A stretch of DNA of 64,000 nucleotides from Piscicoccus intestinalis NBRC 104926. GTDB lineage: Bacteria > Actinomycetota > Actinomycetes > Actinomycetales > Dermatophilaceae. Below the pieces are notes generated by a model. The model had not been told where the DNA came from, did no database searches, and saw only the letters and a list, made by a program, of their open reading frames with translations. The translations under genes and the position numbers were made by a program. Shown here piece by piece: positions 2,772 to 58,975 of the stretch. The stretch spans positions 1 through 64,000 of the forward strand of contig NZ_BCNQ01000006.1 of NCBI RefSeq assembly GCF_001515525.1, written 5' to 3'. Positions within the stretch are counted from its first letter, which is position 1. Each line of letters opens with the position of its first letter.

Positions 2772-2908
2772 CGAGCGACCGACCCCCGCGCACCGAGGCC
2801 GGCTCCGTCGGTGGCGCGCAGGCCCTCGGAGTCGGGTCGGTCCTGGGAGGTCATCGGCGCGGGCGCCACGAGGCGCGCACCGGATCGGAGCTCAGACGGC
2901 ACAGACAT
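2768..2908 (-). CDS. Possible 46-residue ORF coupled to rnj
   Basis: An ATG at 2906-2908 (minus strand) opens 46 codons (MSVPSELRSGARLVAPAPMT and on). GGAGG lies just upstream, although its spacing to the ATG is tight. The TGA overlaps the rnj start codon as ATGA. I recognise no family in the peptide, which is Ala/Gly/Arg/Ser-rich. The overlap suggests translational coupling to rnj, or an upstream ORF in the rnj leader. It may also be chance, since open frames are common at this GC content. Confidence 0.3.
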   Translation of the reverse strand: MSVPSELRSGARLVAPAPMTSQDRPDSEGLRATDGAGLGARGSVAR

Positions 2909-3406: not shown

Positions 3407-3544
3407 ATGTCGGTGGAATCACTCCCGAATCCGGGCGACCCGGCGATTCCCGGAACGGTGTCGAACGAACAGAACAAAACCGGCGATCCCGATTGGACGG
3501 GTGGGCTCAACTGCGGCAGATCGCCGCTGCGAGTACGGCAATGA
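3407..3544 (+). CDS. Short leader ORF, or frameshifted N-terminus, ahead of the DUF222-HNH gene
   Basis: ATG at 3407 has an excellent ribosome-binding site (AAAGGAG at 3394-3400, six bases upstream). It encodes 45 residues beginning MSVESLPNPGDPAIPGTVSN and stops at TGA 3542-3544. The next ATG at 3541 lies in the HNH frame and overlaps this stop as ATGA. Either this is a coupled leader peptide, or it is the true N-terminus of the HNH protein and a one-base indel at roughly 3480-3540 (real or a sequence error) separates the two frames. The HNH frame is open upstream to 3493 and beyond but has no ATG there, which fits the second reading. Confidence 0.5.
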   Translation: MSVESLPNPGDPAIPGTVSNEQNKTGDPDWTGGLNCGRSPLRVRQ

Positions 3545-5049
3545 ATGTCACGGCCGGGCAGGTCATGGCCGACCTGGCGCGAGCGCTGGCGGCACGGGAC
3601 CTGGCGGCGCAGAACGACCTGATCGAGCGTGGCGAGTTGCCGCCGAAGTACCGCAAGTCGGCGGCGCAGATCCTCGACGAAGCACGAATCTGCGTTCAAG
3701 ACACGGCGGTCGCGACGCTGGGCGGCCCGCCGGGCGAGTGGGCCGCGCGGATCGCACTCGGCCTGGCGCCGGAGTCGATCGCGGGGCCGGTGCGAGCGGC
3801 GGTCTCCTCGCGCGCGATCTCCTTCGCGCAGGCGTGCGCGCTGGTGCAGGACATCGGCGCCCCCGAGGTCGGCCCGGAGGCGGGGCAGCGGGTGTGTGAC
3901 GCGGTGGTGGAGTACGCGACGGCGAAGGCCGCGGCGACCGGTGCGCCGGTGAGTCAGGGGCACTTCTGCGCCAAGAAGCGTCGCGAGATGGTCAAGTACG
4001 TCAGCACCACGCGGCGGCGGACACTGGCCATGAACCATCGTCGCGCGTGGGTCAAGCCGCACGACGACGGCGTCGCCTCGTTCGGGGTGACCGGTGCCGA
4101 CGCCCGGTGCCTCGGCGCCTATCGGCGGGTCGACGCGATCGCCCGGTCGCGGCGCAGGCAGGGCGACCCGCGCACGCTGGACCAGTTGCGTGCCGACGCG
4201 GCGCTCGATCTGCTGCTGTTCGGCCGGATCGAGGCCGACGCGCCGACCAAGGTGGACCATCCCGGCCAGGCCGGGTGGCCGGCCGCCATGGTGTCGGTGG
4301 TGGTGTCGGCCGGCTCACTGCTCGGAGTCAACGACGAGCCCGGCACCGTCGAGGGCACCCCGGTCGCGGCGGCGACCGTGCGTGACCTGGCCTATGCGGC
4401 GGGCTCGACGTGGCGCCGGCTGGTGGTCGACCCGGTGACCGGCTACGCGATGGCGCAGGTGTCGGACTCCCATACCCCGCCACCCCGCATGGCGCGAGCT
4501 GTGCGCGACCGCGACGGCACCTGCCGGGCGCCGGGCTGCAACCGTCCGGCCGAGCACTGCGACCTCGACCACGTGCGGGAGAAACGCGACGGCGGGGTGA
4601 CCGCCGGCGACGAACTCGCCGACGCCTGCCGACGCGACCACTCGAAGAAGACCCGACGACACTGGCTCGCCCAGATGTCACCCGACGGGGTCATCCGGTG
4701 GCGGCTGCCCGACGGGCGCGTCTACCCGACCTACCCGATGGACTACCGCGAGTTCGGCCTCGAGCCCGACGAGCCCCGTGAACCCGAGAAGCCCCGTGAA
4801 CCCGAGAAGCCCCGTGCGCCCAAGGAGTCGCAGATGCCCGTGAGCGAACCGAACGAACCCGACAATCCGAGCGGCCCGCCCGAGACCGTGTCCATCAACC
4901 GCACCGACCTCGAGGCCATCGACCGTGCGGCGATCGAGCACCTGAACGAGGTCCACCGGCTCCGCACGGCCATCGCCGCCGAACGGGCGGCCCACGCCGA
5001 GACGCGTGCGCGACTGGAGGCCCTGCGCGCCGAACACCCGCCCTTCTAG
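3541..5049 (+). CDS. DUF222 / HNH endonuclease domain protein
   Basis: This actinobacterial DUF222 protein has a C-terminal HNH nuclease domain. The N-terminal two thirds is helical (LARALAARDLAAQNDLIERG) and typical of DUF222. The HNH motif includes CRAPGCNRPAEHCDLDHV and the later DACRRDHSKKTRRHW, giving paired Cys/His zinc ligands and the catalytic DLDH core. After it come a proline/glutamate repeat (EPREPEKPREPEKPRAPKE) and a short coiled coil rich in Glu/Arg/Ala. The family is often multicopy and linked to mobile sequences; its substrate is not established. The start is uncertain: ATG 3541 overlaps the leader ORF stop, TTG 3493 is also in frame, and the best ribosome-binding site serves the other frame at 3407. 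Confidence 0.85.
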   Translation: MNVTAGQVMADLARALAARDLAAQNDLIERGELPPKYRKSAAQILDEARICVQDTAVATLGGPPGEWAARIALGLAPESIAGPVRAAVSSRAISFAQACALVQDIGAPEVGPEAGQRVCDAVVEYATAKAAATGAPVSQGHFCAKKRREMVKYVSTTRRRTLAMNHRRAWVKPHDDGVASFGVTGADARCLGAYRRVDAIARSRRRQGDPRTLDQLRADAALDLLLFGRIEADAPTKVDHPGQAGWPAAMVSVVVSAGSLLGVNDEPGTVEGTPVAAATVRDLAYAAGSTWRRLVVDPVTGYAMAQVSDSHTPPPRMARAVRDRDGTCRAPGCNRPAEHCDLDHVREKRDGGVTAGDELADACRRDHSKKTRRHWLAQMSPDGVIRWRLPDGRVYPTYPMDYREFGLEPDEPREPEKPREPEKPRAPKESQMPVSEPNEPDNPSGPPETVSINRTDLEAIDRAAIEHLNEVHRLRTAIAAERAAHAETRARLEALRAEHPPF

Positions 5050-24507: not shown

Positions 24508-26223
24508 ATGGTCGATCAGAGCGACCCCCGGGTCTCCCCCAACCGAGACATCACCCGCCTCCCCGACCTGGCCGCCTCCGCCGGGCGAGTCGCCCCGGTA
24601 CGCAACCGCATGCCGGTGTACGTCGACCTGCTGCCCCCGTGCAACGCGGGCTGTCCGGCCGGCGAGAACATCCAGGAATGGCTGCGGCTCATCAAGGCCG
24701 GTGAGGCGGAGGCCGCGTGGCGGCAGCTGACCGCCGACAACCCGTTCCCGGCCATCCACGGCCGCGTCTGCTACCACCCGTGCGAGACGGCCTGCAACCG
24801 GGCGGCCCTCGACTCCGCGATCTCCATCCACGCGGTGGAGCGCTACCTCGGCGACCTGGCCATCGAGAAGGGCTGGCGCTTCCAGGCGCCGGCGCGCGAG
24901 TCCGGGCACCGGGTGCTCGTCGTCGGCGGCGGTCCGTCGGGTCTGTCCGCCGCCTACCACCTGCGCCGCGCCGGCCACGAGGTCGAGATCCGCGACTCGG
25001 CGCCCGCCCCCGGCGGCATGATGCGCTACGGCATCCCCGAGTACCGGCTCCCCCGCGACGTGCTCGACAACGAGATCGCCCGGCTCGTGCACCTCGGGGT
25101 GCGCATCGTCACCGACCACACGGTCACCGACCTGCTCGCCGAGCAGCTCGAGGGCGGGTTCGACGCGGCGTTCGTCGCGGTCGGGGCCCACCTGAGCAAG
25201 CGCGTCGACATCCCGGCCCGCGACGCCGGCAAGGTCGTCGACGCCGTCGACTTCCTGCGCGACGTCGCCTCCGGTGAGCGCCCGGTGCTCGGCCGCCGCG
25301 TCGCGGTCTACGGCGGCGGCAACACCGCGATGGACGCCGCCCGCGTCGCCCGGCGCCTGGGCGCCGAGGAGAGCATGGTCGTCTACCGGCGCACCCGTGA
25401 GCAGATGCCGGCGCACGCCGCCGAGGCCGACGAGGCCGAGGCCGAGGGCATCACGATGAACTGGCTGCGCACGATCACCGAGGTCGACGACGACCTGACG
25501 GTCGAGATCATGGAGCTCGACGAGAACGGCAAACCGCGCCCCACCGGCCGCTTCGAGAAGCTCGAGGCCGACACCGTCATCCTCGCCCTCGGCCAGGAGG
25601 CCGACACGAAGTTCATGCACCAGATCCCCGGGCTGCGCTTCGACCAGGACGTCGTGCAGGTCGATCCGCGCACGCTGATGACCGACGTCCCCGGCATCTT
25701 CGCCGGCGGCGACGCGGTGCCCAGCGAGCGCACGGTGACCGTCGGGGTCGGGCACGGCAAGAAGGCCGCCCGCAGCATCGACGCCTACCTCAACTCCGCG
25801 CCGCTGCCCGAGAAGAACAAGCACCCGATCGTCGAGCTCGACGACCTGCACCTGTGGTATTTCGGCGACCACAAGCAGGGCGCCCAGCCCGAGCTCGACC
25901 CGAGCGCCCGCGTCAGCGACTTCGAGGAGGTCGTCGGCGGCTTCGACGCCGACGAGGCGACCACCGAGGCGTGGCGCTGCCTGAGCTGCGGCAACTGCAT
26001 CGAGTGCGACGGCTGCCTGGGCGCCTGCCCGGAAGACGCGGTCATCAAGCTCGGCAAGGGCTTCCGCTACCGCTACGACTACGCCAAGTGCACCGGCTGC
26101 GGCACGTGCTACGAGCAGTGCCCCGTGCACGCGATCGACATGGTCGTGGAGGGCCGTCCCGACCTCCCGCTCACCGGACCCGGCGCGCGCCGCGACGCGG
26201 CCCCGACGCAGACAGGCAACTGA
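24508..26223 (+). CDS. GltD-like NAD(P)H-dependent FAD oxidoreductase with extra [4Fe-4S] clusters
   Basis: This 571-residue iron-sulfur flavoprotein starts with a GltD/DPYD-type helical [4Fe-4S] domain (CNAGCPAGENIQEWL, then GRVCYHPCETACNRAALD). An FAD-binding motif (VLVVGGGPSGLSAAYHL, residues about 135-152) and an NAD(P)-binding motif (VAVYGGGNTAMDAARVARRL) follow. The C-terminus has two ferredoxin-like cluster motifs: CGNCIECDGCLGACPEDAVI and CTGCGTCYEQCPVHAIDM. It is not glutamate synthase, because no large subunit is present. One base separates its stop from nifJ, so it most likely passes electrons between PFOR or ferredoxin and NAD(P). The exact acceptor is inferred. Confidence 0.88.
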   Translation: MVDQSDPRVSPNRDITRLPDLAASAGRVAPVRNRMPVYVDLLPPCNAGCPAGENIQEWLRLIKAGEAEAAWRQLTADNPFPAIHGRVCYHPCETACNRAALDSAISIHAVERYLGDLAIEKGWRFQAPARESGHRVLVVGGGPSGLSAAYHLRRAGHEVEIRDSAPAPGGMMRYGIPEYRLPRDVLDNEIARLVHLGVRIVTDHTVTDLLAEQLEGGFDAAFVAVGAHLSKRVDIPARDAGKVVDAVDFLRDVASGERPVLGRRVAVYGGGNTAMDAARVARRLGAEESMVVYRRTREQMPAHAAEADEAEAEGITMNWLRTITEVDDDLTVEIMELDENGKPRPTGRFEKLEADTVILALGQEADTKFMHQIPGLRFDQDVVQVDPRTLMTDVPGIFAGGDAVPSERTVTVGVGHGKKAARSIDAYLNSAPLPEKNKHPIVELDDLHLWYFGDHKQGAQPELDPSARVSDFEEVVGGFDADEATTEAWRCLSCGNCIECDGCLGACPEDAVIKLGKGFRYRYDYAKCTGCGTCYEQCPVHAIDMVVEGRPDLPLTGPGARRDAAPTQTGN

Positions 26224-26224
26224 C

Positions 26225-29799
<3,575 letters not shown>

Positions 29800-29800
<1 letters not shown>

Positions 29801-42499: not shown

Positions 42500-42538
42500 A
42501 TGGGGTGTCAGTCCGAATCGTCGCCCGGAGCTGTGCTG

Positions 42539-44260
42539 ATGATCGCCGCGTATCAACCCGACCTGGCCCCGTTGGGCTCGTTGACCCTCTCGGCCCTCGT
42601 GGCCTGCCTGCCGCTGGTGACGATTTTCGTCACGCTCGGCGCCCTGAAGTGGAAGGCGCACTACGCGGGCCTGACGGCCCTGGGTGTGGCGCTGCTCATC
42701 GCGATCCTGGCGTACCGGATGCCGGTGGGCTACGCCCTGAACTCCGCCGTGCTCGGTGGCGTGTTCGGTCTGTTCCCGATCATGTGGATCGTCTTCAACG
42801 CCATCGTGCTCTACGAGGTCACGGTCGCGAGCGGGCGCTTCGAAGACCTGCGCAAGGTCTTCGACCTCATCTCCGACGACCCCCGGGTGCAGGCCATCGT
42901 CATCGCCTTCTGCTTCGGCGGCCTCATGGAGGCCCTCGCCGGCTTCGGCGCGCCGGTCGCCATCACCGGCGTCATGCTCATGGCCGTCGGCTTCTCCGCC
43001 CTGCGCGCGGCCACCGTCGTGCTGCTGGCCAACACCGCCCCGGTCGCCTTCGGCGCCATCGGCACCCCGATCCTCACGGCCGGCCGGCTGACCCACATCG
43101 ACCCCCAGACGATCGGCGCCTACGTCGGCCACCAGACCCCGATCATCGCCTTCTTCGTGCCCCTGTTCATCTGCTTCCTCACCGACGGCAAGCGCGGCGT
43201 GCGCCAGGTCTTCCCCGTCGCGGTCGTCACCGGAGCCGTCTTCGGCATCACGCAGTGGATCAGCGCGACGTACATCTCGATGGAGCTGACCGACATCATC
43301 TCCTCGCTGTGCGGGCTCGCCGCGATCGTCATCATGCTGCGCTTCTGGCGGCCGCAGGGCCGCGACGAGGCCCGCGCCTCGCTGCAGGAGGCGCACGAGC
43401 GCGAGATGCGTGAGCTCGGCGCCACGGACCCCAACGAGGCGGCCGGCACGCACTCGGGTGGCGGCGGCACCGCGACCGCCACGAAGGCCCGTCAGGACAC
43501 CTCGCCGCTGACCGGCGGCCGGATCTTCATGGCCCTGTTCCCCTACCTGCTCGTCATCGCGGTGTTCTCGATCGCCAAGCTCGTGCCCGCGATCAACGCC
43601 GCACTCACCGGCACCGACATCAAGATCCCCTGGCCGGGCTTGAACGGACAGGTCCTCACCGCCGCCGGCACCCCGAACAGCTCGACGGTCTACACGTTCA
43701 CCTGGCTGTCCAGCCCCGGCACGATCCTGCTCATCTGCGGGCTCATCGTGGCCCTGGCCTACAAGGTCAGCCTCGGCGACTGGTTCAAGGTCTTCACGTT
43801 CAACGCTCACAAGATGCGCTTCGCGATCCTCACCGTCGCGACGGTGCTGTCGCTGGCCTACGTCATGAACCTCTCGGGCCAGACGATCACCATCGGCTAC
43901 TGGATCGCCGGCACCGGCGCCGCGTTCGCCTTCCTCTCCCCCGTGCTCGGGTGGCTGGGCACCGCGGTCACCGGCTCCGACACCTCTGCCAACGCCCTGT
44001 TCTCCACGCTGCAGCAGACCGCCGCCCAGCAGATCGGCATCGACGAGACCCTGCTCGTCGCCGCGAACACCTCCGGCGGCGTCGTCGGCAAGATGATCTC
44101 CCCGCAGAACCTCACGATCGCCGCCACGGCCGTGGGCCTCCTCGGCTGCGAGTCCGACATCTTCCGCAAGGTCATCTGGTGGAGCCTCGGCCTGCTGGTC
44201 GTCATGTGCCTCCTGGTCGGCCTGCAGTCGACCCCGGTGCTGTCCTGGATGCTGCCGTGA
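42539..44260 (+). CDS. lctP: L-lactate permease
   Basis: This 573-residue LctP-family permease has about 12-14 membrane helices. It includes SALVACLPLVTIFVTLGALK, VALLIAILAYRMPVGYALNS, VIAFCFGGLMEALAGFGAPV and DTSANALFSTLQQTAAQQIG, the last two being strong family signatures. ATG 42539 (GGAG about eight bases upstream) is preferred over an in-frame ATG at 42500, because 42500 lies at the operator and conserved sequence begins with MIAAYQPD. lutABC follows 67 bases downstream, so the permease supplies lactate to that pathway. Confidence 0.95.
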   Translation: MIAAYQPDLAPLGSLTLSALVACLPLVTIFVTLGALKWKAHYAGLTALGVALLIAILAYRMPVGYALNSAVLGGVFGLFPIMWIVFNAIVLYEVTVASGRFEDLRKVFDLISDDPRVQAIVIAFCFGGLMEALAGFGAPVAITGVMLMAVGFSALRAATVVLLANTAPVAFGAIGTPILTAGRLTHIDPQTIGAYVGHQTPIIAFFVPLFICFLTDGKRGVRQVFPVAVVTGAVFGITQWISATYISMELTDIISSLCGLAAIVIMLRFWRPQGRDEARASLQEAHEREMRELGATDPNEAAGTHSGGGGTATATKARQDTSPLTGGRIFMALFPYLLVIAVFSIAKLVPAINAALTGTDIKIPWPGLNGQVLTAAGTPNSSTVYTFTWLSSPGTILLICGLIVALAYKVSLGDWFKVFTFNAHKMRFAILTVATVLSLAYVMNLSGQTITIGYWIAGTGAAFAFLSPVLGWLGTAVTGSDTSANALFSTLQQTAAQQIGIDETLLVAANTSGGVVGKMISPQNLTIAATAVGLLGCESDIFRKVIWWSLGLLVVMCLLVGLQSTPVLSWMLP

Positions 44261-44327
44261 CGGCCGGACGGGCGACCCCCAACTGCACTAGCGTCGTGCT
44301 CGACCCTTGGAACTACGGAGGCAGGCG

Positions 44328-45145
44328 ATGACCACCCGACCCGGCGAGGGCAAGACCGTGGCGTTGTTCGCGACGTGCGCCAGCGACGTGATGTTTCCCG
44401 ACACCCCCAAGGCCGTGCTGACGCTGCTCGAGCGGCTCGGGTGCACGGTCGTGTTCCCGGAGCGCCAGACCTGCTGCGGCCAGCCGTTCACGAACACCGG
44501 CTACTTCGACGAGACCGTGCCGGTCGTGCGCAACTTCGTCGAGACCTTCGGGGAGTACGACTACGTCGTCGGCCCGTCGGGCTCGTGCATCGGTGCCGTG
44601 CGCGAGCAGCACGAAATGCTCGCCGAGCACGCCGGCGACGCCGGCCTGGCCCGCGCGGTGTCCCAGGTTGTGCCACACGTCTACGACATCAGCGAGTTCC
44701 TCGTCGACGTGCTCGGCGTCACCGACGTCGGGGCGTACTTTCCGCACAAGGTCACCTACCACCCGACCTGTCACTCGCTGCGGGTCGCCCGCGTCGGTGA
44801 CAAACCGATGCGGCTGCTGGAGGCGGTGCGCGGCATCACCGTGCTGCCGCTGGAGGACGCCGACCGGTGCTGCGGGTTCGGCGGCACGTTCTCGCTGAAG
44901 AACCCGGACGTGTCGGTGGCGATGGCCACCGACAAGGCCCGGCACGTGGCCGACACCGGCGCCGAATACCTCGTGACCGGCGACAACCTGTGCCTGCTGA
45001 ACATCTCCGGTGTGCTGAACCGCGGCCAATCGGGCATCAAGCCGATCCACCTGGCCGAGATCCTGGCCCACACCGAGGGCACGACCTCGGTGGCCACCGG
45101 AGCCCAAGGAGCCCAAGCAACCCGAGGAGCCGAAGGAGCGCTGGC

Positions 45146-45149
<4 letters not shown>
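44328..45149 (+). CDS. lutA: L-lactate utilisation protein LutA
   Basis: This 273-residue cysteine-rich protein carries two CCG repeats of the heterodisulfide-reductase type: RQTCCGQPFTNTGYFDE (residues 47-63) and DADRCCGFGGTFSLKNPDVS (about 178-198). LutA is part of the LutABC iron-sulfur complex that oxidises L-lactate to pyruvate. The start at 44328 has GGAGGC about seven bases upstream. The stop overlaps lutB (ATGA). The last 25 residues form a Gly/Ala-rich tail (GAQGAQATRGAEGALA). Confidence 0.95.
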
Positions 45150-46710
<1,561 letters not shown>

Positions 46711-46711
<1 letters not shown>

Positions 46712-47367
46712 TGAGCGCCAAGCAGGAGATCCTGGAGCGCATCCGCTCCGCCACCGGCGACGTCGACCGCACCGTCGCGGCGTCCGAGGACACCCCGGTC
46801 GCGTGGGAGTACCACCGGCCCACGGTCTCCGGCGACGTGCTCGACCTGTTCGTCGAGCGCGTCGTCGACTACAAGGCGACGGTCGTGCGGTGCCCGGCGG
46901 GCGAGGTCGGCGAGCGGATCGTCGACGCCCTACGCCAGACCGGAGCCCGCTCGGTCGTGCTCCCGGCCGAGCTCGACGCCGGATGGCGGGCGGCGATCGA
47001 AGGCACCGACGTGACGATCCGCTCCGACGAACCGCCGCTGACGCAGGTCGAGCTCGACGGCACCGACGCGGTCGTCACGGCCGCCGCGGTCGGGGCCGCC
47101 GTCTCCGGCACGATCATGCTCGACCACGCGGGCGATCAGGGCCGGCGTGCCCTGTCGCTGGTGCCCGACGTGCACGTCTGCGTCGTGCGGGCCGATCAGG
47201 TCGTCTCCGACGTGCCGGAGGCGGTCGGCCGGCTGCGCGGCGCGGTGCAGGACCGCCGTCCGATCACCTGGATCAGCGGGCCGAGCGCCACGAGCGACAT
47301 CGAACTCTCCCGCGTCGAGGGCGTGCACGGGCCGCGGACGCTGTGGGTGATCCTCGCGACCGACTGA
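46711..47367 (+). CDS. lutC: L-lactate utilisation protein LutC
   Basis: This 218-residue protein has a single LUD domain: MSAKQEILERIRSATGDVDR, DAVVTAAAVGAAVSGTIMLD and QGRRALSLVPDVHVCVVRAD, and the family end SATSDIELSRVEGVHGPRTL. It is the third LutABC component. It starts at ATG 46711, overlapping the lutB TGA, and the transcript likely ends before the lipoprotein gene 83 bases further on. Confidence 0.95.
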
Positions 47368-48899: not shown

Positions 48900-50243
48900 G
48901 TGACGCTGATCGAGGCAGACGGCGACGGGGCCGCGCGGCAGGGCGATCCAGGCCGCCGCGATCCCCGCTGGTGGGGTGCCGACACCTTCACCACGGAGGA
49001 GTCCCGGCTGCGCCGGTTGCAGTTCGCCGGGTTGGCCCTGCCCGTGCTGTTCGTCGTGCTGCTGCAGGTGATGCGGCCGGTGCTCGTCCAGGACGTCTGG
49101 CCCCAGCACGGCCGGCTCGCCGTCAGCCTGCTCACCCACGCCGGGGTGCTGGCCTTCGGGCTGGGCATGTACCTCTTGGTCAGCCGGGGCTATCGATTGG
49201 CACTGCGTCGCAATCGCGAATTGTCGGCGATCAGCGATGTGCTGCTGGCGATCTCGCGCGACGACGACCGGTCCGCCACCTCCGCGCGCATCCTCGCGCA
49301 CACCCGGCACCTGCTCGCAGCCGAGGAGGCCGGCGACGGCCCGGTACCGCCCGCACGCGGTGGGCGACACCGGCTCCTCCTCTCGACCGTCACCGGAGCC
49401 GACGCCCCGCTGCCGCGCCTGTGGGCGACCCGCCGGGGCCGCGCGTTCGAGGAGGCCGACCAGCGCACGATCGACACCCTCGCCCAATTGGGCCGGTTGG
49501 CCCAGGACCACGCCCGGATGGCCGCCTCCCAGCGGGAGGCCGCGGTGCTCACCGAGCGGGTGCGCATCGCCCGCGAGATGCACGACAGCCTCGCCCAGGT
49601 GCTCTCGGTCACCCACATGCGGCTGTGGGCCCTGAGTTCGCGCCCCGAGGTGTCGGCAGGCACCCAGCACGAGCTGCGCGAACTCGCGGGGATCTGCCAC
49701 GAGGCCCACACCGACGTGCGCGAATCGATCTTCGGCCTGCGGGAGACGGCCCGCACCGACCGCTCGCTCCTCGAGGGCCTGGACCGGTGCGTCGAGGCCT
49801 TCGAGCGCCAGGCCCGGATCGAAGCCCGGCTCGTCGTCGAGGACGGCGCCCGCCTCGAGCTGCCCGGCACGAGCCGAGCCCACGTGCTGCGGCTCGTGCA
49901 GGAGGCGCTGACCAACGTGCGCAAGCACGCCGGGGCCGAGACCGCGACCGTGCGGGTCGCCCGGGACGGCGACGCCACCGTGCTCACGGTCGAGGACGAC
50001 GGCTGCGGCTTCGACCCCCGCGCCACGGCGGACGCCGGGCGCTTCGGGCTGCACACGATGCGCGAACGGGCCGAGGCGGCCGCCGGGCATCTCACCGTCG
50101 ATTCCCGACCCGGCCGGGGCACCCGGATCGTCGTACGCCTGCCCGCCCCGCGCCCCACCGCGGCCCCGATGCGCACCGCCACCCGAGGCCCCTCCCCGAC
50201 ACCGTCCCTGGCCCAACGCGCCGGCGAGGGCCTGACCGCGTGA
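48900..50243 (+). CDS. NarX/DegS-type sensor histidine kinase
   Basis: This 447-residue HisKA_3-type kinase has two membrane helices (residues about 42-60 and 74-95), a short segment that may be a reduced GAF domain (about 106-200), and a dimerisation H-box VRIAREMHDSLAQVLSVTHM with His 228. The ATPase domain has VQEALTNVRKHAGAETATVR (N box), VEDDGCGFDP and GRFGLHTMRERAEAAAGHL. The start is GTG 48900, with GGAG about seven bases upstream. The response regulator begins 92 bases after the stop. Its position before nrfHA suggests it senses nitrate, nitrite, redox state or a related cue; that is inference. Confidence 0.9.
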   Translation: MTLIEADGDGAARQGDPGRRDPRWWGADTFTTEESRLRRLQFAGLALPVLFVVLLQVMRPVLVQDVWPQHGRLAVSLLTHAGVLAFGLGMYLLVSRGYRLALRRNRELSAISDVLLAISRDDDRSATSARILAHTRHLLAAEEAGDGPVPPARGGRHRLLLSTVTGADAPLPRLWATRRGRAFEEADQRTIDTLAQLGRLAQDHARMAASQREAAVLTERVRIAREMHDSLAQVLSVTHMRLWALSSRPEVSAGTQHELRELAGICHEAHTDVRESIFGLRETARTDRSLLEGLDRCVEAFERQARIEARLVVEDGARLELPGTSRAHVLRLVQEALTNVRKHAGAETATVRVARDGDATVLTVEDDGCGFDPRATADAGRFGLHTMRERAEAAAGHLTVDSRPGRGTRIVVRLPAPRPTAAPMRTATRGPSPTPSLAQRAGEGLTA

Positions 50244-50334: not shown

Positions 50335-51033
50335 ATGAGCGAGCAGGCCACGCTGACCGCCGCCCCGATCCGCGTGCTGGTCGTCGACGACCAGCCCCTG
50401 TTCCGGATGGCGATCTCCTCGCTCATCAACGACGAGCCGGACCTCGAGGTCGTCGCGCAGGCCGAGAACGGTCTCCTGGCGGTCGAGCGGGCCCGCGAGG
50501 CCGAGCCCGATGTCGTGCTCATGGACGTCGAGATGCCGGTCATGGACGGCATCGAGGCCGCCGGGCTCATGCAGGAGCACGTGCCGTGCGCCAAGGTGCT
50601 CATGCTCAGTGTCGTCGAGGACGACGAGCGCCTCGTCGAGGCGGTGCGCCGCGGCGTGCACGGGTACCTGCTCAAAGACCTGCGCCCCGACCAGCTCTTC
50701 GAGATGATCCGGGCCGCGATGCGCGACGAGAGCCCGGTCTCCCCCGCCCTCGTCGGGAGGCTGTTCGCCCAGTTGCGCGGCGGCACCCGCTCCCCCGCAC
50801 CGGCTCCCGTCATCGAGCCGCGGGCCGCGCTCAGCGAACGGGAGCTGGAGATCCTGCGCCTCGTCGCCGACGGCCTGACCAACCGGCAGATCGGCCGGCA
50901 GCTGCACATCACCGAAGGCACCGTGAAGAACCACGTGCACAACGCGCTGCACAAGCTGCACATGGAGAATCGCATCCAGGCCGCCGCGTACGTCGTGCGG
51001 CACGGCCTGGGCCTGCCTCCGCAGTTCGACTGA
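50335..51033 (+). CDS. NarL/LuxR-family response regulator
   Basis: This 232-residue regulator has a receiver domain (PIRVLVVDDQPLFRMAISSL, phosphoacceptor Asp 64 in VVLMDVEMPVMDGIEAAG, KDLRPDQLFEMI with the conserved Lys) and a NarL-type helix-turn-helix (LSERELEILRLVADGLTNRQ, ITEGTVKNHVHNALHKLHM). It is the cognate partner of the preceding kinase. GGAAGGAT lies before ATG 50335. Its likely target is nrfHA, 226 bases downstream, by analogy with NarL/NreC systems. Confidence 0.92.
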   Translation: MSEQATLTAAPIRVLVVDDQPLFRMAISSLINDEPDLEVVAQAENGLLAVERAREAEPDVVLMDVEMPVMDGIEAAGLMQEHVPCAKVLMLSVVEDDERLVEAVRRGVHGYLLKDLRPDQLFEMIRAAMRDESPVSPALVGRLFAQLRGGTRSPAPAPVIEPRAALSERELEILRLVADGLTNRQIGRQLHITEGTVKNHVHNALHKLHMENRIQAAAYVVRHGLGLPPQFD

Positions 51034-51259: not shown

Positions 51260-51754
51260 ATGGTGATGAACAGAGCACGCATAGCCTCCGCCTTCAAGGG
51301 GCTGTTGACCCCCAAGAATGCGTTCTACGCGCTGGCCATCTTCGTGTTCGGCTCGCTCCTGGGTGTCGGGCTCTTCACCTTCGGTTACGCCCGAGGGGCG
51401 TCCTATCTGACGGGCGATCCCGCGGCGTGCGTCAACTGTCACGTGATGCGCGATCAGTGGAACGGGTGGCTCGCCTCGAGCCACGGCAAGGTCGCCACGT
51501 GCAGTGACTGTCACTCACCGCACAACTTCGTCGGAAAGTACGCCAACAAGGCCACCAACGGCTTCTTCCACGGTCTGGCCATGACGACCGGCAACCACCC
51601 GGACAACATCCGGATCAAGCCGTACAACCTGCGGGTCACGGAGCAGGCCTGCTTGTACTGCCACGCGGACATCACGCAGTCCGTGCGCTCCAGCCGGGCG
51701 CACGCGAACACCCAGTCGTGCGTGTCCTGTCACCGAGACGTCGGGCATCTGTAG
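51260..51754 (+). CDS. nrfH: Tetraheme cytochrome c quinol dehydrogenase NrfH
   Basis: This 164-residue membrane cytochrome has one N-terminal helix (FYALAIFVFGSLLGVGLFTF) and four CxxCH heme sites: CVNCH (57), CSDCH (81), CLYCH (131) and CVSCH (154). The first is CVNCHVM, where Met is the expected axial ligand in NrfH. It oxidises menaquinol and passes electrons to NrfA. Start choice is between ATG 51260, GTG 51263 and ATG 51266; AAAGG lies at 51251-51255. nrfA follows 13 bases after the stop. Confidence 0.95.
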   Translation: MVMNRARIASAFKGLLTPKNAFYALAIFVFGSLLGVGLFTFGYARGASYLTGDPAACVNCHVMRDQWNGWLASSHGKVATCSDCHSPHNFVGKYANKATNGFFHGLAMTTGNHPDNIRIKPYNLRVTEQACLYCHADITQSVRSSRAHANTQSCVSCHRDVGHL

Positions 51755-51767
51755 GTGAGTGAGGATC

Positions 51768-53345
51768 ATGAACGCAACGAATACCGAGTCCTCGCAGTCT
51801 TCGGACTCACCCCGTAAAGGCCGGCCGAAAGCGGCGCGCCGGCGGCTGTTCCTGCTCGGTGCCGTCGTCGTGGTCGCGCTGATCACGATGGGCATGACGG
51901 CGCTGCTCGTCAACATCCTCGAGCGGCAGCAGGAGGCCCGCGACGTCGCCTTCCAGTCCACGCCGCTCGACGAGAACAGCTACGACCCGGCGGTCTGGGG
52001 CCAGAACTACCCCGAGCACTACGCGATGTGGCAGGCCACCACCGAGATGGTGCCCACCGAGCACGGCGGTTCTCGCCCGGTGCAGGTGACGATGGCCAAC
52101 GGTCAGACCCGCACCGCCACCGAGAGCCGCATCGAGAAGGACCCGCGGCTGGTGACGATGTGGATCGGGTACCCGTTCTCGGTCGACTACCGCGAGGCCC
52201 GCGGCCACGCCTACATGCTCGAGGACCAGCGGCTGACCCGCCGCGTCACCGAGTTCAAGCAGCCCGGTACGTGCCTGAACTGCCACGCATCGACCGTGAA
52301 GATCATGCGAGAGCTCGGCAACGGCGACATGAACGCTGGCTTCGCGGCCATGAACAAGATGCCGTACGACGAGGCCACCAAGCTCGCCGAGCACCCCGTG
52401 GCCTGCATCGACTGCCACGATCCGAAGACCAACCAGCTGCGCGTCACGCGGCCGGCCTTCCAGAACGGCATGCAGCGGCTCAAGCAGCACGAGGGCGTCA
52501 GCAACTACGACGTCAACAAGGACGCGAGCCCGCAGGAGATGCGTACCTTCGTCTGCGCCCAGTGCCACGTGGAGTACTACTTCAAGGGCGACACCAAGGA
52601 ACTGACGTTCCCGTGGGGCCAGGGCCTGAAGGTCGAGAACATCATGGCCGACTCCACCGACCACGTCGACTGGGTCTACCCGACCACCGGCACCAAGATG
52701 CTCAAGGCCCAGCACCCGGAGTTCGACCTGAGCCAGCAGGGTGTGCACGCGAGCGCCGGCGTCAGCTGCGCCGACTGCCACATGCCGTACAAGCGTGAGG
52801 GCGCCGTCAAGCTCACCGACCACCACATCCGCAGCCCGCTGCTCATGGTCAACAACTCCTGCCAGACGTGCCACAGCGCGTCCGAGGAGGAGATGAAGGG
52901 CCGGGTCAAGACGATCCAGGACCGCTTCATCCACACCCGCGACGTGTCGATGGACTCGCTCATGGACCTCATCGCCGACCTCGAGGCCGCGCAGACCAAC
53001 GGCACGCCGCCCGAGCGGATCGCCATCGCCCGCAGCTACCACCGCAAGGCGAGCTTCCTCAACGACTACCTCTACTCGGAGAACAGCTACGGCTTCCACG
53101 CCCCCGGCGAGAGCAACCGCATCTTCGCGGACGCGATCGACGCCGCGCGCAAGGGCCAGATGGCCCTGCAGGGCAAGGTCACCGAGCCCGCCGAGCAGAA
53201 CGGTCCGGACCAGAGCGGTGCCGCCCCGAGCCCCAAGGCCAACGCCCCGGGCGCGACGCAGCAGCCGACTCAGCCGGCGACCCAGTCGCCCAACACGTCG
53301 GCCACGACGGCTTCGGCCCCGCCGAGCCCGGCGGCCACGCCGTGA
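51768..53345 (+). CDS. nrfA: Cytochrome c nitrite reductase NrfA (all five hemes CxxCH)
   Basis: This 525-residue pentaheme enzyme reduces nitrite to ammonium with six electrons. The heme sites are CLNCH (169), CIDCH (213), CAQCH (263), CADCH (334) and CQTCH (365). The first, the catalytic site, is CxxCK in most NrfA proteins, but here it is CxxCH. Conserved surroundings are DPRLVTMWIGYPFSVDYREA with RGH, CHVEYYF (catalytic Tyr) and KAQHPEFDL (Gln/His). A membrane helix (about residues 28-50) takes the place of a cleaved signal. The last 60 residues are a Pro/Ala/Thr/Gln tail. ATG 51768 is chosen; GTG 51759 is possible. Confidence 0.95.
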   Translation: MNATNTESSQSSDSPRKGRPKAARRRLFLLGAVVVVALITMGMTALLVNILERQQEARDVAFQSTPLDENSYDPAVWGQNYPEHYAMWQATTEMVPTEHGGSRPVQVTMANGQTRTATESRIEKDPRLVTMWIGYPFSVDYREARGHAYMLEDQRLTRRVTEFKQPGTCLNCHASTVKIMRELGNGDMNAGFAAMNKMPYDEATKLAEHPVACIDCHDPKTNQLRVTRPAFQNGMQRLKQHEGVSNYDVNKDASPQEMRTFVCAQCHVEYYFKGDTKELTFPWGQGLKVENIMADSTDHVDWVYPTTGTKMLKAQHPEFDLSQQGVHASAGVSCADCHMPYKREGAVKLTDHHIRSPLLMVNNSCQTCHSASEEEMKGRVKTIQDRFIHTRDVSMDSLMDLIADLEAAQTNGTPPERIAIARSYHRKASFLNDYLYSENSYGFHAPGESNRIFADAIDAARKGQMALQGKVTEPAEQNGPDQSGAAPSPKANAPGATQQPTQPATQSPNTSATTASAPPSPAATP

Positions 53346-53749
53346 CCGAGTCGACGAGCTGATCGGTAGCTCGCACGACAGATAGCCCGCACGACACGGT
53401 GCCGGGGGTGGGGATCCCGCCCCCGGCACCGTCGTGTCTGGGCGCACCGGCAGCGGATGGGGGCACAGTCGGCGGCTATACCCGGCCTATACCCATCCGG
53501 TGCGAATGGCCTGGTCGCCATGACCACGGCCGATCCCGGATCTATCCCGGACGTGCCTGACGACAGATGGTCGCGGCGCCGCCGCGGAGAGAGTGTGGAG
53601 GCCGATTCCTGCAGCGGTCACAGGGCCGAGCACGAACGCACGACCAGAGCACTCGAACGACGGCTCGACCGACAAGACACCGACGACATACGAAACGCAC
53701 GACTTCGGCGCATACCAATCCCCCGACACCGAACGGCAGGACGAAACCA
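53346..53749. other. Intergenic region after nrfA, before the maturation genes
   Basis: About 404 bases separate nrfA from the CcmI-like gene. A strong hairpin (53398-53430) ends the nrfHA transcript. The rest is less GC-rich near 53620-53750 (CGACATACGAAACGCACGAC), probably the promoter and leader of the maturation operon. Open frames here lack start signals or family resemblance. Confidence 0.6.
53398..53430. terminator. 15-bp terminator hairpin after nrfHA
   Basis: GGTGCCGGGGGTGGG (53398-53412) pairs with 53416-53430 over a 3-base loop, with one G-T wobble. GTCGTGTCTG follows. It is about 50 bases past the nrfA stop. Confidence 0.75.
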
Positions 53750-54775
53750 ATGGCGCAGCGGACCCCAGCGGCGGACGGAGCCCCCGACCCGGCGGACGGC
53801 CCCTCGGCGCGCCCGCCCGCGGACCTCGATGAGCGGCTGCGCACCTGGATGGGCGTCGACGAGACGGTCGGCGCGGCCGACCTCGACCGGCTCCACCGCG
53901 AACTGAACCGCTACCTCGACCAGGCCCCCTCCCCCCTGCACGAGTGGGCCCGCCGGCAGTCGCGCACCGCCGACGCCGCCCACGCCGTGCTCACCGGGCA
54001 GGCCGCGGGCGACCAGGCCGACGGCCTGCGTGACCTCGCCGATCTCGACGAGGACGTCGAGGCCAGGCCCACGGTCTACGGGCGCACCGCGCAGCGCAAC
54101 GCCGCCAAGGAGAAGGGGCGCACGCCGATCACCGCGCTGGCCCTCGTCGTCATCGTGCTCGGGGTGATCTTCGGGGTGTACCAGCTCGGAGACCGTTCCG
54201 GCGCCGAGCAGCCGGCGCAGGAGACGAGCCTGGCCAATGCCGCCAGCGGCATGCCGGAGGGCATGGGCATGGGCCCGACGCCGGTGCCCGTCGACCCGGC
54301 CAAGGTCGACACCCTCTCCCAGCGGGTGCAGGCCAACCCGAAGGACGTCGACGCGATGCGGGACCTGTCGAACATGTACGTGCAGGCCGCCGACTACGCC
54401 AACGCCGCCACCTGGCAGGCCCGCGTGCTCGAGGTCACCCCGAAGGACACCGACGCCCGGCTCGCGCTCGGCGCGTCGAAGTTCAACCAGGGCGACACCG
54501 CCTCCGCCGAGAAGGAGTGGCGCGAGGTGCTGCGCATCGACCCGAAGTCGGCCGAGGCGCACTACGACCTGGGCTTCCTCTACCTCAGCAAGAACCCGCC
54601 GGACGCCAAGAGCGCCGCGGCCGAGTGGACCAAGGTCAGTGAGCTGGCTCCGGACTCGCAGATCGCGAAGACCGCCCAGGCGCACCTCGCGCGGATCCAG
54701 CAGATGAGCACGGCATCACCCTCGGCACCCGCCGCACCGGCTCCGAGTTCCGGCTCCACGGGGGCGGCGGAGTAG
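53750..54775 (+). CDS. TPR-containing membrane protein, CcmI/CycH-like
   Basis: This 341-residue protein has a soluble N-terminus (LDERLRTWMGVDETVGAADL), one membrane helix (ALALVVIVLGVIFGVYQL, about residues 128-146) and tetratricopeptide-like helical repeats (DVDAMRDLSNMYVQAADYAN, DTDARLALGASKFNQGDTAS, AEAHYDLGFLYLSKNPPDAK). A Ser/Ala/Pro tail closes it. This layout resembles CcmI/CycH apocytochrome chaperones. It lies two bases before ccdA and heads the maturation genes, so apocytochrome handling is inferred. In-frame starts upstream are possible. Confidence 0.7.
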   Translation: MAQRTPAADGAPDPADGPSARPPADLDERLRTWMGVDETVGAADLDRLHRELNRYLDQAPSPLHEWARRQSRTADAAHAVLTGQAAGDQADGLRDLADLDEDVEARPTVYGRTAQRNAAKEKGRTPITALALVVIVLGVIFGVYQLGDRSGAEQPAQETSLANAASGMPEGMGMGPTPVPVDPAKVDTLSQRVQANPKDVDAMRDLSNMYVQAADYANAATWQARVLEVTPKDTDARLALGASKFNQGDTASAEKEWREVLRIDPKSAEAHYDLGFLYLSKNPPDAKSAAAEWTKVSELAPDSQIAKTAQAHLARIQQMSTASPSAPAAPAPSSGSTGAAE

Positions 54776-54777
54776 CC

Positions 54778-55629
54778 ATGGCCGACTCGACGTTGCTCGC
54801 GCTGCCGCTGGTGGTGCTCGCCGGGGTGATCTCGTTCGCCTCGCCGTGCTTCCTGCCGGTGGTGCCGGTCTTCGTCAGTTACCTGCTCGGCGGCCGCGCC
54901 CAGGCCGACGTCGACGGCGGGCTCGATGCGGCGAGCCGGCGGGCCCTGCGCCGCGCGGCCGCCACCCAGGCCGTCGTGTTCGTGCTCGGGTTCACCGCCG
55001 TCTTCGTCGCGGTGTGGGCCTCGGTCGGGGTGCTCGGCCACGTGCTCAGCCCGTACCGCTCCGCTCTGCGCATCGTCGGCGGCGCGATCATCATCGTGCT
55101 CGGCCTGCACGTCGCCGGTCTCATCGAGCTGCCGTTCCTGCGCCGCCAGGTGCGGGTGCCGATGCAGACGGTGCTCGTCGCCAGCGGTGATCTGCAAGGG
55201 TCCGCCTCCGGCCCGCACGCGCCGGCCGGAGGCGGGCTGGCCACCGCCGCGCGCCCGCGGCCGGCCGTCGTCGACCCGGGGTCGCTGCGCCCGAGCTATC
55301 GGCGCTCGGCTCTCATGGGCCTGGCGTTCGGGGCGGGCTGGACACCGTGCATCGGCCCGACGCTGGGCGCCGTCATCGGGTTGGCCTCCAGCGGCGAGAG
55401 CGTCGCCCCGGGCATCGTTCTGCTGCTGGCCTACTGCCTCGGGCTGGGCATCCCGTTCGTGCTCGTCGCGCTCGGTGTCGACGCCGTGCAGCAGCGGATG
55501 CGCGCCCTGGCCCGCCACGAGGCCACGATCTCGCTCGTCAGCGGCGCGCTCATGGTGCTGCTGGGGTTCGCGATCGTCACCGACCTGTTCGGCCGGTTCA
55601 CCGGCCTCCTGCCCGCGTACGGACTGTGA
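54778..55629 (+). CDS. ccdA: Cytochrome c biogenesis protein CcdA
   Basis: This 283-residue DsbD/CcdA-family membrane protein brings reducing equivalents across the membrane. It has six or more helices and the two conserved cysteines SFASPCFLPVVPVFV (Cys 24) and GWTPCIGPTLGAVIGLAS. A soluble loop of about 60 residues lies in the middle. It keeps apocytochrome and ResA-type thiols reduced for heme attachment. It starts two bases after the TPR gene and is followed by resB within eight. Confidence 0.93.
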   Translation: MADSTLLALPLVVLAGVISFASPCFLPVVPVFVSYLLGGRAQADVDGGLDAASRRALRRAAATQAVVFVLGFTAVFVAVWASVGVLGHVLSPYRSALRIVGGAIIIVLGLHVAGLIELPFLRRQVRVPMQTVLVASGDLQGSASGPHAPAGGGLATAARPRPAVVDPGSLRPSYRRSALMGLAFGAGWTPCIGPTLGAVIGLASSGESVAPGIVLLLAYCLGLGIPFVLVALGVDAVQQRMRALARHEATISLVSGALMVLLGFAIVTDLFGRFTGLLPAYGL

Positions 55630-55636
55630 GGACATC

Positions 55637-57304
55637 ATGACCAGATCTGTCGACATCGTCCGGCCGGTGCAGGGCCCGCAGGTCTACCTCCGCCAGGGCG
55701 AGGAGCCCCGGCAGGACGGCGGCTCCGGCGGCTCAGGCGGCGATCGCACCGGGTTCGGCGGCGGAGGCGGCGGTAACCACGGGCGCGGTCGCGGCGGACG
55801 TGGCGGACGCAGCGGACGCAGCGGGGCCCGGCGCGCGTTCGCCCCGAAGAACCTGTCCCGCCGGATCTACGCGTTCTTCTACAGCAAGCACGTGGCGATC
55901 ATCCTCATCCTGTTCATGGCGTTCCTGACGCTCATGGGCACGCTGCTCGAGCAGTCTCCGGACGGGGTGCGCGGCGACTCCGACGCCTACCGCTCGTGGC
56001 TCGACACGGTGCGGCCGCGCTACGGCGGCTGGACCGACATCCTCTACACGATCGGCTTCTTCCACATCTTCGCGTCGCCGGCGTTCAAGGTCACGACGAT
56101 CATGCTGACGCTGAGCATCATCGCGTGCACGACGCACCGCACGCCGTCGCTGTGGCAGCGGTCCAAGCGCCCGCACGTGCACCCCAGCGACGCGTTCTTC
56201 GCTCGCGCCGGCCTGCGCGCCGAGATCGTCATGCCGGGCACCCCCGACCAGGCGCTGCAGCGCGTGCAGGGCATGCTGAGCTCCCACCGGTACCGGGTGG
56301 TCGACGACCCGAAAGACCCGAACGGCTCGTGCTACGCCGACCGCTTCCACCTGGCCCCGTTCGCCACCCTCATCGCCCACACGGCCTTCGTCATCATCCT
56401 CGTCGGCGTGCTCGTGACCTCGACGTTCGGCTTCCGCCTCAACGAGTTTCCGGTGACCGTGGGCAGCACCGCCGACGTCGGGCAGGGCACCGACCTGGCG
56501 ATCGAGGTGCACGGGTTCAGCGACTCGTACCACCCGAACGGCCAGCCGATGGACTTCGTCTCCGACCTCGTGCTGTACGACAACGGCCAGCAGGTGGCGC
56601 GCCAGGACGTGCGGGTCAACCAGCCGATGCGCTACGACGGCGTCGTCATCTACCAGTCGTACTTCGGCATCGCCGCGATGCTGCGGATCACCGACCCCGC
56701 CTCCGGTCAGGTGCTCTTCGACGGTGGCGTGCCGCTGCAGTACCAGACCGACGACGAGAAGCACGTGTTCGGCTCGGTCACCCTGCCGAAGTACGGGCTG
56801 AAGTACTGGGTCATCAGCGGGGCCTCCGGGCGCACCGACGCGCTCGTCGCGCCCGGCCAGGCGCAGGTCGACGCGGTGCGCATCGGACAGACCGAGCGCA
56901 CCGACTCCGGGGTGCTCGACCAGGGCGCCTCCGGCCAGATCGCCGGGCTCAACGTCACCTTCGAGCGCGAGCGCCAGTTCACCGGCCTGTCGGTGGCCCG
57001 CGACCACGGCGCGCTCATCGTGTGGATCGGCTCGGGCCTGATGATGCTCGGCTTCATGCTGACGTTCCTCATCCGGCAGCGGCGGCTGTGGGTGCGGGTG
57101 CGCCCCGTCGAGGGCACCGACGCCCACGGACGCGTGCGTTCCCGCGTCGTCATCGCGTCCACCGACCGCACCGACCTCGGCTACGAGCACCGGTTCCGGC
57201 GCATGATCGGCGACTTCGTGCGCCGAGCCGTCAAGGCCGACCGGTCCGGCACGGCAGCCGGCACCTCCACCGTCCCGGCCGCGACCGGCTCCCGGCACAC
57301 CTGA
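55637..57304 (+). CDS. resB: Cytochrome c biogenesis protein ResB
   Basis: This 555-residue protein is ResB/Ccs1, half of the system II heme lyase. After a Gly/Arg-rich cytoplasmic start (GRGRGGRGGRSGRSGARR), membrane helices read VAIILILFMAFLTLMGTLLE, then ILYTIGFFHIFASPAFKVTT and HTAFVIILVGVLVTSTFGFR. A long extracytoplasmic domain (MRYDGVVIYQSYFGIAAMLR) and a final helix (LIVWIGSGLMMLGFMLTFLI) follow. It binds apocytochrome and works with the CcsB/ResC protein 31 bases downstream. The ATG is 55637. Confidence 0.94.
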   Translation: MTRSVDIVRPVQGPQVYLRQGEEPRQDGGSGGSGGDRTGFGGGGGGNHGRGRGGRGGRSGRSGARRAFAPKNLSRRIYAFFYSKHVAIILILFMAFLTLMGTLLEQSPDGVRGDSDAYRSWLDTVRPRYGGWTDILYTIGFFHIFASPAFKVTTIMLTLSIIACTTHRTPSLWQRSKRPHVHPSDAFFARAGLRAEIVMPGTPDQALQRVQGMLSSHRYRVVDDPKDPNGSCYADRFHLAPFATLIAHTAFVIILVGVLVTSTFGFRLNEFPVTVGSTADVGQGTDLAIEVHGFSDSYHPNGQPMDFVSDLVLYDNGQQVARQDVRVNQPMRYDGVVIYQSYFGIAAMLRITDPASGQVLFDGGVPLQYQTDDEKHVFGSVTLPKYGLKYWVISGASGRTDALVAPGQAQVDAVRIGQTERTDSGVLDQGASGQIAGLNVTFERERQFTGLSVARDHGALIVWIGSGLMMLGFMLTFLIRQRRLWVRVRPVEGTDAHGRVRSRVVIASTDRTDLGYEHRFRRMIGDFVRRAVKADRSGTAAGTSTVPAATGSRHT

Positions 57305-57335: not shown

Positions 57336-58286
57336 ATGTTCGATATCTCGCAGTACGCGCTGCTGGCGAGCACGGCGCTCGTCGTCCTCGCGCTGTTCGC
57401 GCACATCGCGGTCGCCGTCAAGCACCGGCGGGACGCCCACGACGAGTCGCCCGAGCGAGCCCCCGCGATGGTCGGCGCCGCGAGCAGCGAGGCCGGCGCC
57501 TGGGAGGACGCCGGCTACTCCATCGACGGCATCGTCGTGCGCGACCTCAACCACGGCGCGGGGTCGTCCGAGCACGCCCGCGGACTGGTCTGGTACGCCG
57601 ACAACGTCACCCGGCTGGCCGCGTTCTTCCTCGCCGTCAACCTCGTGAGCCGCGCGATCACCACCGGGCACGGCCCGTGGGCCAACCAGCACGAGTTCGC
57701 CGTCGCGTTCAGCTTCGGCATGCTGTTCGCGTACACGCTGTTCGTGTGGCGCTACAAGGTGCGCATGCTCGGCCTGTTCGTGCTGCCGGTCATCCTCGCG
57801 ATGCTCATCTACGCGCTGACCGTCGACTCCACCGTGCGCCCGCTGGTGCCGGCTCTGCACAACAACACGATGCTGGCCATTCACGTGGCGTGCGCGATGC
57901 TCGCCTACGGAGCCGGTGTCGTCGCCTTCGGCGCCGCGGCGCTGTACCTCGTCCACCCGCACGTGCGCTGGAAGGGGATGCCGGACCGCGAGCTGCTCGA
58001 CGAGATCGGCTACCGCGCCGCCATCCTCACCTACCCGCTACTGACGATCATGATCATCCTCGGCGCGGTGTGGGCCGACGTCGCGTGGGGCCGGTACTGG
58101 AGCTGGGACCCCAAGGAGACCGCGGCCCTCGTGACGTGGCTCATCTACGGCGCCTACCTGCACGCCCGCATCTCCCGCGACTGGCGCGGCGACCGGGCCG
58201 CCTGGCTGCTCATCCTCGGCTTCGCCGCGATCCTGTTCACGTTCTTCGGCAACCTGTTCCTCGGCGGATTGCACTCCTACGCCTGA
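57336..58286 (+). CDS. ccsB: Cytochrome c biogenesis protein CcsB/ResC (heme handling)
   Basis: This 316-residue membrane protein is the CcsA/ResC-type partner of ResB. It has eight or so helices, conserved histidines (HVACAMLAYGAG) and the tryptophan-rich heme-binding motif WADVAWGRYWSWDPKETAAL with the WWD-like pattern near residues 249-270. LLILGFAAILFTFFGNLFLG ends it. It carries heme across the membrane and presents it for attachment. AAGAAGG precedes ATG 57336. Confidence 0.95.
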   Translation: MFDISQYALLASTALVVLALFAHIAVAVKHRRDAHDESPERAPAMVGAASSEAGAWEDAGYSIDGIVVRDLNHGAGSSEHARGLVWYADNVTRLAAFFLAVNLVSRAITTGHGPWANQHEFAVAFSFGMLFAYTLFVWRYKVRMLGLFVLPVILAMLIYALTVDSTVRPLVPALHNNTMLAIHVACAMLAYGAGVVAFGAAALYLVHPHVRWKGMPDRELLDEIGYRAAILTYPLLTIMIILGAVWADVAWGRYWSWDPKETAALVTWLIYGAYLHARISRDWRGDRAAWLLILGFAAILFTFFGNLFLGGLHSYA

Positions 58287-58321: not shown

Positions 58322-58975
58322 ATGGCACGCCAGAGCCTGCAGAACCGTCCCGACGTGCGCGACGAGAACGAGCCGCGGGACTGGCGCGAGCGGATCCGCA
58401 CGAGCCGGCTCGGCACGATGGGCGTGCTCACGCTGACGGCCGCGCTCGTCGTGCTCGGCGCGTACTTCCTGCGCCCCGACGCGCCGATCGCCGCCAAGGC
58501 CGGCAACGAGGGGTCGGTGGAGGCGGTCGAGCTCACCGCGGCGGCGTCGGGCCCGGCTCCCGAGATCGGGCAGGCCGCGCCGGGGTTCACCGGCGTCTCG
58601 ATCGACGGCAAGCCGGTGTCGCTGGACCAGCTCAAGGGCCGCCCGGTGTGGCTGACGTTCGGCGCGTCGTGGTGCTCGGCATGCCGCGTCGAGGCGCCGG
58701 ACATCCAGGCCGCGCACGCCGAGGGCGAGCCGAAAGACCTGGCAATCGTCGCGTTCTACCTCTCCGAGGAGGCGATGACCGTCAAGACGTTCGCGCAGCG
58801 GCTCGGCCTCACCTTCGACCAGGTGCCCGACCCGCAGACCCAGGTCGCCTCGAGCTACCGCGTCATGGGCATCCCGGCGCATTTCTTCATCGACCGCGAC
58901 GGGGTGCTGCGTTCGACGCACGTCGGCATCCTCAGCGAGGAGAAGATCGCCACCGCCTTGAAAGAGATCGGCTGA
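58322..58975 (+). CDS. resA: ResA/TlpA-type thioredoxin-like protein
   Basis: This 217-residue membrane-anchored thiol-disulfide oxidoreductase has an N-terminal helix (MGVLTLTAALVVLGAYFL) and a thioredoxin fold with PAPEIGQAAPGFTGVSIDGK, active site GASWCSACRVEAPD (CxxC near residue 119) and GIPAHFFIDRDGVLRSTHVG with the conserved cis-Pro. It reduces CxxCH cysteines of apocytochromes for heme attachment. AAGGAG precedes ATG 58322. It is last in the maturation unit, followed by a terminator hairpin. Confidence 0.9.
   Translation: MARQSLQNRPDVRDENEPRDWRERIRTSRLGTMGVLTLTAALVVLGAYFLRPDAPIAAKAGNEGSVEAVELTAAASGPAPEIGQAAPGFTGVSIDGKPVSLDQLKGRPVWLTFGASWCSACRVEAPDIQAAHAEGEPKDLAIVAFYLSEEAMTVKTFAQRLGLTFDQVPDPQTQVASSYRVMGIPAHFFIDRDGVLRSTHVGILSEEKIATALKEIG

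Follow-up and report, generated by a model that had tools for sequence, protein, structure and literature searches.

The window, i.e. the whole stretch of 64,000 nucleotides analysed here, harbors nine genes on one strand (+) in the order kinase, regulator, nrfH, nrfA, TPR protein, ccdA, resB, ccsA, and tlpA, separated by gaps of 2 to 401 bases. The unit is headed by a sensor histidine kinase with a NarX/NarQ-like C-terminal half (48900..50243; PF07730, PF02518; best NCBIfam model NarQ, below its cut-off) and a NarL-like response regulator (50335..51033; PF00072, PF00196; best NCBIfam model NarL with 182.3 bits, below the cut-off of 250). They are followed by nrfH (51260..51754), encoding a tetraheme menaquinol dehydrogenase subunit of 164 aa with the motifs CVNCH, CSDCH, CLYCH, and CVSCH that scores above the cut-off of the NCBIfam NrfH model TIGR03153 (153.1 bits; cut-off 134.2). 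After 13 bases, nrfA (51768..53345; 525 aa) begins with an ATG, with an alternative GTG start at 51759 in the same frame. Its product, a pentaheme ammonia-forming nitrite reductase, has a hydrophobic stretch at the N-terminus and a tail rich in Pro, Ala, and Thr; it matches PF02335 with an E-value of 7.8e-125 and, among solved NrfA chains, best 6v0a (phmmer, E 6.3e-62). The next gene encodes a TPR protein (53747..54775; TPR families) with a single hydrophobic helix preceding the repeats and an uncertain start codon, the longest frame beginning at 53567. Then come a ccdA-like gene for a thiol-reduction membrane protein (54778..55629; PF02683), whose place is kept in other loci, resB, also called CcsB (55634..57304; PF05140, 3.8e-65; start uncertain), ccsA (57336..58286; PF01578; named CcsB in NCBIfam, TIGR03144 above cut-off; WWD core WGRYWSWDPKETAALV), and a gene for a ResA/TlpA-like thiol-disulfide oxidoreductase (58322..58975; PF00578; best NCBIfam model ResA, below its cut-off). 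The resB and ccsA genes both belong to an nrf-linked lineage described below.

All five heme motifs of the NrfA are of the CxxCH type (CLNCH, CIDCH, CAQCH, CADCH, and CQTCH). The first of them (52272..52286, +; residues 169-173) is that of the catalytic heme 1 and aligns with the heme-1 CxxCK of solved NrfA, which bears out an earlier note on this DNA that had proposed CxxCH at all five hemes with CLNCH as the catalytic site. CxxCK is absent from both NrfA and NrfH of the window, a scan of the other window frames of at least 100 aa found no CxxCH outside these two proteins, and the genome encodes one copy of NrfA.

The residues around heme 1 were compared by aligning 95 CxxCH with 20 CxxCK NrfA sequences. 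The last residue of the heme-1 motif is His in 95/95 sequences of the former set and Lys in 20/20 of the latter. Arg145, Tyr270, and His316, which we take to be the catalytic residues, are invariant in the 95 CxxCH sequences, and so are Glu269, Tyr270, Lys313, and Gln315, presumably forming the calcium site; the view of the earlier note that the other active-site blocks are conserved thus holds throughout this set. These assumed roles are partially matched in the available part of PMC12285233. Most simply, the motif residue His173 is likely the proximal ligand of heme 1, judged from the aligned sequences. It is improbable that a Lys from elsewhere in the protein takes this place in CxxCH enzymes, even though the ligand of CxxCH NrfA goes unreported in the part of PMC12285233 available and Lys239, Lys273, Lys277, and Lys348, besides the calcium-site Lys313, are kept in at least 79 of the 95 sequences. 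The motif His is invariant, the only lysines present in all 95 sequences (Lys313 and Lys348) are common to about half of the CxxCK enzymes, as is Lys277 (94/95), and the more clade-specific Lys239 and Lys273 reach only 88/95 and 79/95, respectively; an invariant Lys specific to the CxxCH clade was sought in this alignment, and none was found. A Lys-to-His change abolishes the activity of Wolinella NrfA (PMC8840924, available part), so the CxxCH clade would have to differ elsewhere near heme 1. The alignment also yields columns specific to the CxxCH clade; they were rejected as an explanation of the His tolerance, since descent alone yields such columns.

CxxCH at heme 1 was found in 16/16 other loci of the family and in 80/80 named relatives, the latter being near relatives only, since they are the best 80 of at least 594 places. 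In a phylum sample of 396 genomes, CxxCK occurs in 20 loci and one fragment, and CxxCH in one further locus (L172), while six loci of this sample (L185-L190) are not NrfA by profile. The residue alignment and the NrfA tree of 115 rows omit two fragments (L184 and L151, a split gene) and two loci on the same contigs as others (L027 as L141, L043 as L150). With the motif column removed, the residue changes between K and H once on this tree, at a split with an SH-aLRT of 98, and the NrfA of the window lies on the CxxCH side. Within that group, an actinobacterial clade of 22 rows (SH-aLRT 99) includes the window NrfA as well as that of Intrasporangium calvum (most likely genome G041), and its nearest group consists of 11 Acidobacteriota rows. 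The tree agrees with the monophyly of the CxxCH clade reported in PMC10716430 and with the occurrence of CxxCH in 3 of 18 NrfA clades given in PMC8840924, as far as the available parts of both papers go. According to the sections at hand, the CxxCH clade dominates nrfA reads from soil (PMC10716430), and I. calvum, whose NrfA is of the CxxCH type, reduces nitrite to ammonium (PMC6349771). The earlier statement that CxxCH-type NrfA is known from other bacteria is likewise backed by the available text of PMC12285233, PMC10716430, and PMC6349771. CxxCH at heme 1 is therefore not very unusual, and the NrfA of the window is an ordinary member of a known clade.

Two nrfA genes encountered in this survey deserve separate mention. 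The NrfA of a MAG labelled Propionibacteriaceae (L066, 2003-3649) groups with Gemmatimonadota, which points to gene transfer or a misbinned contig. In the only congener with NrfA (genome G069; L151, 11916-13492, -), nrfA is split over two frames by a frameshift or an assembly error.

The nine-gene order, including the kinase upstream of nrfH, recurs in 13/16 other NrfA-bearing genomes of the family; the remaining three comprise two loci of the I. calvum type and one contig that is too short. In five named actinobacteria from other groups, nrfA is likewise followed by genes for ResB, CcsA (confirmed by PF01578), and a TlpA-like protein. Altogether, linked ResB/CcsA accompany nrfA in 21/21 actinobacterial CxxCH loci with enough flank, the window counted; outside this count are L150 and L035, which have short flanks, and L066 and L172, which are on short contigs and do not belong to the clade. 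The position of the TPR protein is kept across the clade. In System I, NrfG is a TPR subunit encoded beside nrfA, and the window protein would resemble NrfG and CcmI in having outer-side repeats behind one helix, as its predicted topology has it, and in its place beside nrfA. No NrfG or CcmI model matched it in an NCBIfam search, and neither protein is found among the 60 listed of its 249 matches.

In the I. calvum-type loci, resB-ccsA-tlpA precede nrfHA in the same orientation and are separated from it by a ten-heme frame, whereas the set of the window lies downstream together with the TPR protein. The NrfA of one such copy (L145) belongs to the same clade and is 55% identical to that of the window. 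The intervening frame, placed between tlpA and nrfH (L145, 15237-17534, -; L147, 14921-16741, -), contains ten CxxCH motifs and probably encodes a decaheme cytochrome, so that a further multiheme cytochrome would adjoin the nrf-type System II there.

Searches with PF05140 and PF01578 showed that the genome encodes a ResB/CcsA pair twice, once in the window and once on contig C205. A fused NrfI was considered and rejected, as both PF05140 and both PF01578 places are separate genes. The earlier note had seen no NrfI-type gene in the window, which is right for the fused form, but a two-gene counterpart lies beside nrfA. It had also taken the pair present for the general one; the general pair is that on C205, and the window pair represents a separate lineage. 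The two pairs share the Pfam families, the WWD core, and conserved histidines, and the window pair has the features of a System II synthase (PF05140, PF01578, WWD core, conserved histidines). The window CcsA, however, is only 31% identical to that of C205 (23% for the ResB segment), whereas its identity to the nrf-linked CcsA from elsewhere in the family is mostly 55-71%, and 46-50% for those of G028 and both I. calvum-type loci. In both trees the two pairs stand on opposite sides. In the ResB tree, from which L148 (a split gene) and L055 are omitted, 20 nrf-linked and 16 general sequences are fully separate (100/100); in the CcsA tree, which includes the very long outlier L055, 21 nrf-linked sequences separate from 17 general ones (93/67), with the branch recovered in each of 200 bootstrap trees. 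The WWD core and the three histidines common with general CcsA are present in every one of the 21 nrf-linked CcsA, and the position right after WDPKE-x is Ala or Ser in 21/21 of them versus Trp in 17/17 general CcsA. At least two ResB matches occur in 15/17 NrfA-bearing versus 37/169 NrfA-free family genomes (Fisher p 8e-8, counted by eye and with kinship ignored). As relatedness and split genes spoil such counts, the case is carried by gene order and trees.

Outside Actinobacteria, the picture is different. PF01578 was searched in 50 genomes from the 80 named loci, namely in 45 of the 71 non-actinobacterial ones, picked by flank length, and in five actinobacterial ones. In none of the 45 non-actinobacterial CxxCH genomes does a match fall within some 16 kb of nrfA, the nearest (G621) being about 16 kb off; a linked CcsA-type gene is thus no requirement of the enzyme as such. 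Among the CxxCK genomes of the phylum sample, a PF01578 gene lies within 5 kb of nrfA in 8/19, one of which (L210) we take to be CcmF-like by its motif. Linkage in actinobacterial CxxCH loci, in 0/45 other CxxCH genomes, and in 8/19 CxxCK genomes indicates that it goes with lineage more than with motif, and a CxxCK motif cannot explain the nrf-linked synthase here. The earlier argument that CxxCH makes a dedicated synthase superfluous fits the non-actinobacterial genomes and fails in the window: that the need for a dedicated lyase is removed is not supported where a distinct ResB/CcsA lineage is kept with nrfHA across Actinobacteria. The association is that of one clade and may go back to a single event. 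A scan of the 80 named loci for the WWD-core pattern returned six actinobacterial loci and L055, the sole non-actinobacterial one with this core in reach. L055 is a Verrucomicrobia contig that was not among the 50 searched; its fused ResB-CcsA frame (1768-4575, -) faces a CxxCH nrfA.

Some genomes seem to possess the nrf-linked pair alone. In G009, which consists of one contig, a congener's general ResB, used as the query, retrieved the nrf-linked copy only, as a weak match, and PF01578 detected only the nrf-linked CcsA. The genome retains QcrC with CASCH and CAMCH as well as frames carrying all four heme motifs of NrfH and all five of NrfA, so the nrf-linked pair is probably able to act on CxxCH sites. 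Provided that the assembly is correct, the gene content suggests that this pair is a complete synthase for CxxCH rather than a device for CxxCK; by serving QcrC in G009, it would not be strictly dedicated. In G623 and G627, whose completeness is not stated, the single CcsA matched is nrf-linked, too. In the window genome, a PF13442 search yielded one diheme protein, on contig C90, which we take to be QcrC on account of its two CxxCH domains and C-terminal helix.

The locus is best read as a CxxCH-clade NrfHA nitrite reductase encoded together with a System II set of its own for cytochrome c maturation, a reading to which we assign a probability of roughly 0.68 and which builds on the motifs, the gene order, the presence of two pairs, their separate lineages, and the conserved association. 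From these we infer the substrate, the heme ligation, and the activity of NrfHA and the linked set as follows. Electrons from menaquinol would pass via NrfH and the NrfA hemes to heme 1. Nitrite would be reduced there on the distal face, close to Arg145, Tyr270, and His316, with His173 as the putative proximal ligand. The linked CcdA and ResA/TlpA-like proteins would keep the apocytochrome cysteines reduced, and the linked ResB/CcsA would move heme outward and attach it at all nine CxxCH motifs, four in NrfH and five in NrfA. The weakest step of this scheme concerns the anchored TPR protein, which may keep the apoproteins in place while heme is loaded. The general ResB/CcsA pair most likely serves the diheme QcrC. 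It is a tentative extension that the general pair, tuned to QcrC, cannot load NrfHA and that the distinct actinobacterial System II lineage is a multiheme maturation module; if true, the multiheme apoprotein, rather than a non-canonical motif, would be what calls for a private synthase at each nrf locus, where every site is canonical CxxCH.

The linkage to nrfHA may also reflect joint expression only. A somewhat doubtful variant sees the linked set as a second general System II without preference for NrfHA, providing extra heme-attachment capacity when the nrf regulator activates anaerobic genes. The kinase and regulator at the head of the same cluster would suit it, as would the canonical look of the shared heme-handling residues and the pair of G009 that seems to serve QcrC too; the separate lineage with its fixed Ala/Ser in place of Trp after WDPKE-x argues against it. 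It appears unlikely that heme attachment is left entirely to the general System II, with the linked pair as a dispensable duplicate: a canonical motif should suit any CcsBA (PMC10663686, available part), and the 45 non-actinobacterial genomes do without a CcsA-type gene near nrfA, but a dispensable copy would not persist as a distinct lineage with nrfHA in every testable locus of the clade. Although the 8/19 CxxCK genomes with a nearby PF01578 gene recall such an origin, it is very improbable that the pair is a relic that once served a CxxCK NrfA in the manner of NrfI and remained after the Lys was replaced by His, since K/H changes once, the actinobacterial clade is nested within the CxxCH group, and the tested neighbors, including all eight tested Acidobacteriota of the sister group, lack a linked gene, which implies that the pair joined after the motif had become CxxCH.

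A CxxCH-clade NrfHA with its own System II can be set against known systems, as the available parts of the respective papers describe them. The enzyme is known as a clade: the NrfAH of I. calvum (PMC6349771) and the soil-dominant clade (PMC10716430) share the heme-1 CxxCH, the NrfH partner, the active site, and the calcium-type site. Linked maturation genes are known from Wolinella and Bacillus, in both with CxxCK. In Wolinella succinogenes (nrfHAIJ), a System II synthase is likewise encoded with nrfHA, but NrfI is one fused protein serving CxxCK (PMC12285233), whereas the window has two separate genes and no CxxCK. In the Gram-positive Bacillus azotoformans, maturation genes also lie beside nrfHA, yet these are ccm genes of System I and the NrfA is of the CxxCK type (PMC3475470). 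In mostly open-access literature, no account of an nrf-linked second System II with CxxCH NrfA in Actinobacteria was found, which is weak evidence of novelty. Dedicated CcsBA machines are described to accompany unusual motifs, e.g. CxxCK (review PMC10663686, available part); a separately evolving System II linked to an nrf locus in which all sites are canonical would violate this rule and render its cause testable, with G009, which has lost the general pair, and the ammonifying isolate I. calvum as test cases at hand.

Just before the nrf unit, genes for an L-lactate permease and LutABC-like lactate oxidation proteins are found (42500-47367, +; PF02652, PF02754, PF02589), and judging from these neighbors lactate may serve as an electron donor for nitrite. 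A JmjC_2 protein (PF08007; 59088-60407, -) faces the end of the unit. Further upstream (24508-29800, +), a pyruvate:ferredoxin/flavodoxin oxidoreductase is encoded beside a Fer4_20/pyridine-nucleotide oxidoreductase, which fits an anaerobic life.
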